The notes beneath the pieces were generated by a model. That model saw nothing but the letters and a program-made list of their open reading frames with translations. It had not been told where the DNA came from and made no database searches. The position numbers and the translations under genes are program-made. Below, one piece after another: positions 12,338 through 16,647 of a DNA stretch of 22,507 nt. Each line of letters starts with the position of its first letter. Within the stretch, counting starts at the first letter, position 1. The DNA is from a virus. The DNA lies in the IMG/VR virus record IMGVR_UViG_3300005178_000004, positions 1-22,507 of that record; one strand, given 5' to 3'.

Positions 12338-12391
12338 TCATCTATCGCGCCTTCTGACTTCGCGAGAGTCGGTGGGAAAAATTGAGTTAGT

Positions 12392-12446
12392 CGGTGATCG
12401 CTTTCCTCCAATCGCGGTCACTGGCTGGCTCTAAACGATTGGAGGA
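12392..12446 (+). promoter_or_regulatory. Leader RNA pseudoknot that sequesters the ribosome binding site
   Basis: Stem 1: GTGATCGC (12394-12401) pairs with GCGGTCAC (12414-12421), with one G-T pair, extendable by two pairs. Stem 2: TCCTCCAATCG (12404-12414), located in the loop of stem 1, pairs perfectly over 11 bases with CGATTGGAGGA (12436-12446). Stem 2 contains the GGAGG ribosome binding site (12441-12445), 7 bases before GTG 12453. The two stems share one base at 12414 and otherwise form an H-type pseudoknot or a two-state switch. Either way the ribosome site is buried when stem 2 forms. Confidence 0.62.
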
Positions 12447-14203: not shown

Positions 14204-14557
14204 ATGACCAGATTCGACGCGGTAAAGCGCATTGGCGAGGACTATACGAGAGAACACGGAAGGATACGAATGAGAGAATATTTATTGAACTTATTGAAAC
14301 AACTGGAGATTGCGATAGCGCCACCCGAAGGATGTCATCATGCGATTATGCATTCCCAATATGGGAACGACGAAAGCGGATGGGAAGACAGGCTCGCGTT
14401 ACAGCTAAACTTAGACGGACAATTCGTCACGCTGTTCCTCGATGATGATGATTTTAATCTGACCTACACTGAGCTTGCGCGGAAGATCAAGGAATATCTT
14501 GAAGTTCAAACGGCTAAAGATCGTGACGGGCATCTGGTAATTGGCAATCCTGCATAA
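14204..14557 (+). CDS. Hypothetical protein, 117 aa
   Basis: The protein begins MTRFDAVKRIGEDYTREHGR, with a basic N-terminal helix, then LLNLLKQLEIAIAPPEGCHH and an acidic region (FVTLFLDDDDFNLTYTELAR). An AGAGG lies about 9 bases before the ATG. Acidic Asp-rich loops could bind metal, but no known motif is present. It is the last gene of the replication-linked group; a 73-base gap with a structured element separates it from the terminase genes. Confidence 0.72.
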   Translation: MTRFDAVKRIGEDYTREHGRIRMREYLLNLLKQLEIAIAPPEGCHHAIMHSQYGNDESGWEDRLALQLNLDGQFVTLFLDDDDFNLTYTELARKIKEYLEVQTAKDRDGHLVIGNPA

Positions 14558-14564
14558 TTCTGTG

Positions 14565-14623
14565 GTCAAAGTAACCCGAATGGGTTAGGATATAGTGTAT
14601 GTATATGATATACACTCTTTGAC
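14565..14623 (+). ncRNA. Three-way-junction RNA candidate before the terminase genes
   Basis: P1: GTCAAAG (14565-14571) pairs with CTTTGAC (14617-14623), 7 bp. P2: TAACCC (14572-14577) pairs with GGGTTA (14582-14587) around GAAT, starting at the very next base. P3: AGTGTAT (14594-14600) pairs with ATACACT (14610-14616), extendable by a G-T and a T-A pair, ending directly beside P1. Only GGATAT (14588-14593) is unpaired in the junction. All arms are perfect. The terminase small-subunit ATG lies 7 bases after P1 and has no ribosome binding site. Alternatively the palindromes are DNA operators or a packaging site overlapping an extended -10 (TG 14606-14607, TATACA 14609-14614). Confidence 0.5.
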
Positions 14624-14630
14624 GGTCTAA

Positions 14631-15272
14631 ATGAATAGAAAACCCTATGACGCTTGTGGCGCAAAGAAAAAGCAAGGTGAAGGCACTTGTACCCAGCCTG
14701 CCGGATGGGGAACGGACCATTTTGGGCAGGGTAAGTGTAAGCTTCACGGAGGTGCAACCCCAATCAAGTCAACGGGTAGATACTCCAAAATCAAGCGTCC
14801 AGCTTTACGCGAACGCATTGAACGATTTGAAGCTGACCCTGACCCGACGAACCTGCTACCGGAAGTCTCTCTATTACGCGCTTTCACTGAAGACCTCATG
14901 GAGCGATGGGATGATATTTACGGGCCCGATGGTGCTTTGCTGGCTTGGCATAGCTCATTTGGCAATCCCGAAAACGCGAATCCTAAACCACGCCAGATGC
15001 CCGATTTTAGTGCAATCACAACGGTTGTCAAAGAGGTCGGGGCAATGGTTGACCGTATCCAGAAATGGAAGTCTGAAGGATCGATCACAATGGAAACGTT
15101 TAACCGCGTGGTTCAAAGTTTCGGCTCTGAACTTGTGCTTGCTGTCAACGAGGCCGGACTAGATGAGCCTACGAGTACCCGTCTTCTCAATTCCATCGAA
15201 CAGCGGTGGGCCTCTATCCGGCTTGAACCTGTCAAGCCCGGCAATAAGAGGACTGAGGGAAACGAGGAGTAA
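14631..15272 (+). CDS. terS: Terminase small subunit with N-terminal zinc-binding HGGATP domain, 213 aa
   Basis: The N-terminus reads MNRKPYDACGAKKKQGEGTC, then TQPAGWGTDHFGQGKCKLHG and GATPIKSTGRYS. Cys9, Cys20, Cys36 and His39 are zinc-ligand candidates, and CKLHGGATP followed by GRYS is, as I recall, a frequent start of phage terminase small subunits. The rest is helical, with a central segment LLPEVSLLRAFTEDLMERWD and a C-terminal oligomerisation-like helix. The position directly before the large subunit supports the call. The protein would recognise the packaging site and load the motor. There is no Shine-Dalgarno sequence; a structured element ends 7 bases before the ATG. Confidence 0.8.
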   Translation: MNRKPYDACGAKKKQGEGTCTQPAGWGTDHFGQGKCKLHGGATPIKSTGRYSKIKRPALRERIERFEADPDPTNLLPEVSLLRAFTEDLMERWDDIYGPDGALLAWHSSFGNPENANPKPRQMPDFSAITTVVKEVGAMVDRIQKWKSEGSITMETFNRVVQSFGSELVLAVNEAGLDEPTSTRLLNSIEQRWASIRLEPVKPGNKRTEGNEE

Positions 15273-16647
15273 GACAAAGAATCGGGACTCAACCCGCCTC
15301 GCCTTTCGCGGTGCAAACCTTGAAATCCAATCCTATCGCGGCCGTGAATTCCTTCTCTCGGGCCCTGCCGAAACTGGCAAAACTGTGGCAGCATTATGGT
15401 TACTAGATTCTCTATTGCGCGAAACACCGAAAGCGCATGGCGTCCTTGCTCGTAAATTACATGTCTCAATTGCCGGTACTGTTCTTGTCACTTATAAGCG
15501 AATACAAGAGATTCGTGAAAAGATGGGGGAAAAGCAATCCATTCCATACGGTGGTGAAAAGCCGGAATTCTATACCTATTCAAATGGGGCAAAGTTATGG
15601 ATTGGCGGACTCGACAACCCGAATAAGATGCTTTCCGGTGAACGGGATTTTATCTACATCAACCAAGCGGAAGAGCTAAAGCTTGACGACTGGGAAATCC
15701 TTTTCACTCGCTGCACCGGCCGTGGCGCTGTCACGAAGACGCCAATGATTTTCGGTGATTGCAATCCCGGCGCGGAAGATCATTGGATATTGAAACGCCC
15801 CAGTCTAAAACTTTTCCACTCAAAGCATATCGATAATCCGTCGCTATATGATGAAAACGGAAACCTGACAGAGCAGGGCGTTCGCACGCTTGCCACGCTT
15901 CAAAGTCTGACAGGTATTCGCAAGTCGCGATTATGGGAAGGCAAATGGGTTGGCGCGGAAGGATTGTTTTTCGATGAATGGGACGATACTGTTCATACTT
16001 GCGAACCCTTTGCAATCCCCAAAGATTGGCCGGTTTGGGGCGCTCTGGATTATGGGCAGGTCCATAATACAGCGTTCGGGCTATTCACCGAGAACGAAGG
16101 AACGATTTATCTAATCGGTGAGCATATCCGGCATAGATGGCTTCCACCGATGCATTGCAAAGCAATAAGACGAATGATGGAGCGGAACGGTATCAATCCA
16201 GATAGCGTGAGACAGGTTGTCGCTGGGCATGATTGTTTTCAAGTGAAGGGCGATGCGAACGGCAGAACGATTGCGCAGCAATACCTTGACGCGCTAGACC
16301 CTGAAACACAATTACCGATTGGATTGAAGCTGGAAATGGCTAACGTAGCGCGAATTTCAGGCGCGGCTGAATTGCTCAATAGATTGGGTAATGCCGAAAT
16401 GAAGATAGCGCCGAAATTCAAAATCTTCAGAACTTGCCCGCGTTCAATTGCGGCAATGCCAAGAATGGTGCATGATCCGCGAGAGCCAAACGATGTGTTA
16501 AAAGTTGACGCGGATCAAAATGGCGATGGTGGAGATGACGAATATGATATGATTCGCTACGGAACAATGACAAGAGCGACAAGAGCCGCCGCCGTTTCCC
16601 CTGGCGGTGCAAAGCGAACAAGCCGATGGATACACGAAGGAATGTAG
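15163..16647 (+). CDS. terL: Terminase large subunit (packaging ATPase and nuclease), 494 aa
   Basis: Walker A GPAETGKT is at residues 67-74; the Walker B-type strand FIYINQAEEL is at 163-172 with Glu170/171 as catalytic acid; the coupling motif GDCNPG is at 198-203. The RNase H-like nuclease follows: Asp296 in ALDYG, Asp357 in GHDCF and the acidic DDEYDM at 458-463. It powers DNA translocation into the prohead and cuts the concatemer. The earliest start, ATG 15163, has GAGG 9 bases upstream but overlaps terS by 110 bases; TTG 15223 is the next option. No ATG, GTG or TTG lies between terS and the conserved region, so the true start is open. Confidence 0.92.
   Translation: MSLRVPVFSIPSNSGGPLSGLNLSSPAIRGLRETRSKTKNRDSTRLAFRGANLEIQSYRGREFLLSGPAETGKTVAALWLLDSLLRETPKAHGVLARKLHVSIAGTVLVTYKRIQEIREKMGEKQSIPYGGEKPEFYTYSNGAKLWIGGLDNPNKMLSGERDFIYINQAEELKLDDWEILFTRCTGRGAVTKTPMIFGDCNPGAEDHWILKRPSLKLFHSKHIDNPSLYDENGNLTEQGVRTLATLQSLTGIRKSRLWEGKWVGAEGLFFDEWDDTVHTCEPFAIPKDWPVWGALDYGQVHNTAFGLFTENEGTIYLIGEHIRHRWLPPMHCKAIRRMMERNGINPDSVRQVVAGHDCFQVKGDANGRTIAQQYLDALDPETQLPIGLKLEMANVARISGAAELLNRLGNAEMKIAPKFKIFRTCPRSIAAMPRMVHDPREPNDVLKVDADQNGDGGDDEYDMIRYGTMTRATRAAAVSPGGAKRTSRWIHEGM

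Follow-up and report, generated by a model that had tools for sequence, protein, structure and literature searches.

The window analysed here, the whole 22,507-base stretch of an IMG/VR virus record, carries a compact plus-strand run of genes that leads from the replication initiator gene rep (12453) through four small genes, terS (14631) and terL to a Mu-type portal gene. Between rep and portal, neighbouring genes overlap or are at most 7 nt apart, and the sole larger gap is the 73 nt before terS. This gap holds a 59-nt three-way-junction element (14565–14623). The question raised by the locus is what such an element does between two genes: whether it acts as RNA on the translation of terS, serves as a site on the DNA, or is a neutral structure that folds well by luck.

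Results

Architecture of the terS gap

The element consists of three perfect helices (P1, P2, and P3; 7, 6, and 7–9 bp) that are flush around one 6-nt joiner. The preliminary description had claimed this arrangement, and it was confirmed when every pair was read from the sequence. The helices are separated by 0 (P1/P2), 6 (joiner), and 0 (P3/P1) unpaired bases. The Watson-Crick core of P3 pairs 14594–14600 with 14610–14616, and on the plus strand G14601–U14609 and U14602–A14608 extend it to 9 bp. Exactly 7 nt separate the upstream stop codon from the element, and another 7 nt separate the element from the terS ATG. GGTC, a direct repeat of 4 nt, is read at both element edges (14564–14567 and 14624–14627).

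Table 1. Coordinates of the junction element, the possible leader ORF, and the adjoining genes in the window.
Feature	Position	Strand	Description
P1 5′ arm, GTCAAAG	14565–14571	+	pairs with 14617–14623, 7 bp
P2 5′ arm, TAACCC	14572–14577	+	flush on P1; 6 bp with 14582–14587
P2 loop, GAAT	14578–14581	+	
P2 3′ arm, GGGTTA	14582–14587	+	
Joiner J2/3, GGATAT	14588–14593	+	6 nt
P3 5′ arm	14594–14602	+	7 Watson-Crick pairs plus G-U and U-A
P3 3′ arm	14608–14616	+	flush on P1
P1 3′ arm, CTTTGAC	14617–14623	+	
Possible 7-codon leader ORF, ATG-TAT-ATG-ATA-TAC-ACT-CTT-TGA	14599–14622	+	stops 8 nt before terS ATG
Upstream gene	14204–14557	+	117 aa, unknown function; stop 7 nt before P1
terS	14631–15272	+	small terminase candidate; N-terminal Cys/His motif (CGAKKK...HGG); no SD
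terL	15163–16647	+	large terminase, Terminase_3 / PBSX-like

Folding strength and rarity

The 73-nt gap has a minimum free energy of −21.7 kcal/mol as plus-strand RNA and −18.8 kcal/mol as the minus strand; plus-strand RNA is favoured because the G-U pair lengthens P3. The pair probability is 0.97–0.99 for all three helices when the gap is folded in isolation. Across larger transcript contexts of 200 to about 1070 nt, it is 0.94–0.98 for P3, 0.74–0.97 for P2, and 0.43–0.99 for P1. The folding energy z-score of the element is −2.8 to −3.8, about ninth among the window loci, of which about eight outscore it. By folding energy, the element is good, not exceptional. A long hairpin with a 14-bp outer stem at 2325–2410 is one of the window's most stable folds. 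It sits after the leftmost plus-strand genes and before a minus-strand gene group and is probably a terminator-type structure.

A strict definition of the three-way shape admitted only Watson-Crick pairs, a P1 of at least 7 bp, arms of at least 6 bp, and no more than 6 unpaired bases at the junction. The window has a single site of this shape, the element itself, and none was found in 1.1 Mb of other loci. Dinucleotide shuffling of the window, repeated 1200 times, produced the shape once, or about 0.001 expected per window, an optimistic estimate of rarity because the definition was fitted after the site was seen, so that the real surprise is smaller. P1 by chance alone has a probability of about 4^-7.

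The terS start

The terS start at 14631 is well placed because an in-frame TAA stop directly precedes the ATG. The 20 nt upstream of terS form an anti-SD duplex of −3.0 kcal/mol compared to a window background median of −2.9 kcal/mol; most other window genes reach −5.6 to −12.5 kcal/mol. These data bear out the earlier statement that terS starts 7 bases beyond the junction with no ribosome binding site. The terS AUG is about 0.73–0.95 unpaired in predicted folds.

A scan of the gap detected no sigma-70-like promoter, and no promoter or terminator pair was found around the element. An intrinsic terminator (a GC-rich stem followed by a T run) was considered and rejected; the scan lists none, and CTTTGACGG comes after P3. 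A leader peptide was also considered. A14587 and the joiner form a weak AGGA located 8 nt before the ATG at 14599, and the possible ORF that begins there has a weak SD (−4.5 kcal/mol). Such a leader peptide is possible, yet expected by chance, and the 7-codon ORF is likely a chance occurrence.

A separate structure precedes rep, which starts with GTG. An 18-bp hairpin in 12384–12446 carries TCCTCCAATCG (12404–12414) in its loop, and this is an 11-nt perfect complement of CGATTGGAGGA (12436–12446), the rep ribosome-binding site. Their pairing is a putative pseudoknot that would mask the rep SD. A loop/SD complementarity of 10 nt was reached in 2 of 20000 shuffles.

Search for copies and relatives

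Rfam gave no match at the gathering threshold anywhere in the window, and the tRNA/tmRNA scan gave nothing. The exact P1 plus P2 arm pattern had 0 matches in 2.9 million viral contigs. A covariance model (R1) run over 93 sources recovered the window itself plus chance-level matches in L058 and L059 only. When 396 Acidobacteriota genomes were searched, the model produced two matches of 30.8 bits in which P3 is missing or shortened and the surroundings differ, and both were judged to be chance. The covariance approach put forward in the preliminary description hence came back without a copy of the element in related loci or in these genomes.

TerL matches Terminase_3 and PHROG terminase families, with phage_term_2 only below cut-off. 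Its relatives (up to 71% identity) have unrelated small subunits and different upstream genes, and scanning loci of phages with the same TerL with the covariance model turned up no element. The element is also absent from the portal relatives scanned. No viral relatives were found for the 880-aa head protein or the 117-aa upstream protein. The latter has a 44% relative in one genome (L144), beside which no terminase gene is evident.

A single-sequence search for TerS in viral contigs found none, and a search with a two-row alignment gave 13 matches, most in the N-terminal region only and none with a similar element. Among distant relatives of the TerS N-terminal domain in viral contigs, the genes mostly overlap or nearly abut, with no room for the element, and 6 of 12 have a 4-nt start/stop overlap. 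These overlaps and the tight junctions from rep to portal indicate that stop-start contact is common before terS. TerS relatives on Deinococcus plasmids differ in their long N-terminal extensions and clear SD-like sequences, and no motif like that of the element accompanies them. On the plasmid of Deinococcus psychrotolerans (L151), the terS homologue seems to shift frame after the N-terminal domain around 2501–2733, and the annotated gene begins only at 2733.

Near full-length TerS relatives are present in two Acidobacteriota loci, L128 (63% identity) and L146 (57%), whose TerL proteins have no tblastn similarity to the window TerL. A TerS that is 57–63% identical is thus paired with a dissimilar TerL, and relatives of the window TerL are paired with an unrelated TerS, a pattern that points to strong shuffling of the two terminase subunits. 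TerL relatives also occur in two Acidobacteria MAGs. The origin of these TerL and best TerS relatives in the same phylum makes an Acidobacteriota host likely for the virus.

The terS gap of L128, the closest TerS relative, has no significant fold (z −0.9). The 159-nt terS gap of L146 (4917–5075) contains two strong hairpins (z −5.75, matched by 0 of 300 shuffles), and the L146 terS has a weak SD. The helices of these hairpins include CTAACC/GGTTAG and CTAA/TTAG. In the hairpin with CTAACC/GGTTAG, a 6-nt spacer lies on the 3′ side between this helix and the closing outer 10-bp helix, an arrangement that resembles P1, P2, and the joiner of the element without P3. The sequence common to the L146 gap and the element is solely that of the P2 helix, TAACC/GGGTTAG. 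The window has a single GGGTTAG (14582) and the 14 kb of L146 contain two, each in the terS gap; the 7-mer was not found in L128. A shared 7-mer arises in 22% of paired shuffles, and one that is present twice in 0.03%. The two L146 copies may reflect a duplication. The spacing from TAACC to GGTTA varies (4, about 30, and about 35 nt). The three-way fold is kept in neither Acidobacteriota TerS relative with a readable gap (n = 2), leaving no homologous fold to align. The preliminary description had named loss of the arms in relatives with the same terminase as a ground for refutation. In these two relatives with the same TerS, P1 and P3 are not kept, and only the P2 sequence (TAACC/GGGTTA) recurs, in one of them.

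Comparison with known systems

The preliminary description had likened the element to the phi29 packaging RNA (pRNA), and the likeness lies in an RNA three-way junction tied to DNA packaging genes. The pRNA is longer, multimerises via complementary interlocking loops, and serves another type of motor. The comparison fails on each of these points. The element is 59 nt, much shorter than the pRNA; its loops, GAAU (14578–14581) and AUAUG (14603–14607), are not complementary and do not interlock; and a TerS-like gene precedes a Terminase_3-type TerL here, unlike the phi29-type ATPase without a TerS/TerL pair. The pac and cos sites bound by TerS near terS in tailed phages act as duplex DNA and need no flush three-way pairing. 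They are like the element in their place beside terS and in their repeated short motifs.

Intercistronic structure shortens the SD-AUG spacing at T4 genes 25 and 38, which have split ribosome-binding sites (PMC3014915). The shared feature is a phage mRNA structure that shortens the effective path of the ribosome to the start codon. The T4 structures are simple stems between SD and AUG (27 to 11 nt and 22 to 5 nt), whereas the element is a three-way junction between stop and AUG with no SD on its 5′ side. A true T4-type split ribosome-binding site was rejected, as 14540–14564, 5′ of P1, contains no SD. Staphylococcal phages make cabRNA, a structured RNA from terS/terL whose sequence varies between phages; it is about 400 nt or consists of hairpins below 50 nt and is sensed by host CBASS (PMC10686824). 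The element, if it acts as RNA, would likewise be a structured RNA of the terminase gene region, but cabRNA arises within terS/terL and the element lies before terS.

Discussion

The element is a real, well-formed but orphan structure, and a role as a translational leader is plausible. Our leading account, tentatively held, is that it is a cis-acting, phage-specific structured leader in a polycistronic mRNA that acts on translation of the SD-less terS. The flush helices, the G-U pair formed only by the plus strand in P3, the SD-less terS, and the exact filling of the gap favour this account. The flush closure together with the exact stop-to-start fit argues for a role as a single strand, most likely mRNA; two independent palindromes would not need such closure. 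The strongly folded L146 gap, with its weak SD and TAACC/GGGTTAG helix, also suggests a leader. The rarity of the strict shape, the high predicted pairing (in larger contexts that of P3), the largely unpaired terS AUG, the stop-start contact common before terS, and the T4 precedent count for it as well.

The polycistronic mRNA would cover the replication genes and continue into those for packaging. Closed P1 would bring the upstream stop, 7 nt away on one side, beside the terS AUG, 7 nt away on the other, and the junction would cut the path between them to about 14 nt. Translation of terS would then depend mainly on ribosomes passed on by the upstream gene, and it would be tuned when the junction opens or is bound. 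The effect may have either sign, and as a brake the junction would hold terS expression down. In a synthetic operon, according to a review (PMC12548453), coupling showed a negative correlation with structure directly after the upstream stop, and this disfavours the bridge and favours the brake. Several results count against a leader. The three-way fold recurs in no relative, which leaves no covariation, and the L128 gap has no significant fold; the P1 pair probability falls to its minimum of 0.43 in one context, and about eight window loci fold better. The preliminary description had named a riboswitch-like leader as an alternative, and a leader is the favoured reading here. An improbable extension is that the TAACC/GGGTTAG helix, common to the junction and the two L146 hairpins, is an RNA recognition element of this Cys/His-motif TerS family, whose members would bind their own mRNA leader and so control TerS synthesis or couple synthesis to packaging.

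That the structure is neutral or due to chance, an AT-rich remnant between genes which folds well by luck and was picked among many windows read, is unlikely, although it is to be taken seriously. The modest energy z-score, the lack of a homologue of the fold, and the strict definition set after the fact are consistent with it; the low expectation of the strict shape per window, the exact symmetric fit in the gap, and the SD missing precisely at terS are not. A DNA role is likewise unlikely as we weigh it. The element would be a TerS recognition site of the pac/cos type or a late-promoter operator, its inverted repeats being protein half-sites. The preliminary description had raised such a packaging or operator site, and it stays among the explanations, though a leader is favoured. 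The position at the boundary of replication and packaging genes directly before terS, the operator-sized palindromes P2 and P3, and the restriction of GGGTTAG to the terS gaps of the window and L146 point to a DNA site. However, duplex DNA has no need of flush P1 closure, the TAACC/GGTTA spacing is too variable for a rigid dimer site, the closest TerS relative lacks the motif, and the gap has no sigma-70-like promoter.

Insertion of a MITE- or hairpin-type DNA element, small and either mobile or palindromic, between two coupled genes, tolerated because it is folded away, would explain the perfect outer inverted repeat, GGTC at both edges as a possible target duplication, and the overlapping genes of distant relatives at the same place. 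This origin is improbable: the element is a single copy with none else in the window, the related loci, or the 396 Acidobacteriota genomes apart from the two weak chance-level matches, and the GGTC repeat, which overlaps an arm, may have arisen by chance. The least probable of these explanations is a separately made small structured RNA, either a packaging RNA of the phi29 type or another kind. The junction does adjoin the terminase genes, and some of the structured RNAs that staphylococcal phages make from terS/terL are under 50 nt (PMC10686824), but the missing Rfam match, the short length, the non-complementary loops, the two-subunit terminase, and the lack of a promoter or terminator pair all speak against it.

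As known so far, the element is one orphan structure. If it works as proposed here, ribosomes would pass between genes over a 73-nt gap by way of an intercistronic three-way junction, beyond the simple stems of T4, in the setting of phages of the poorly studied Acidobacteriota of soil and groundwater. Should GGGTTAG turn out to be a site for TerS, one could test directly whether small terminases read the hairpins next to their own gene as RNA or as DNA.
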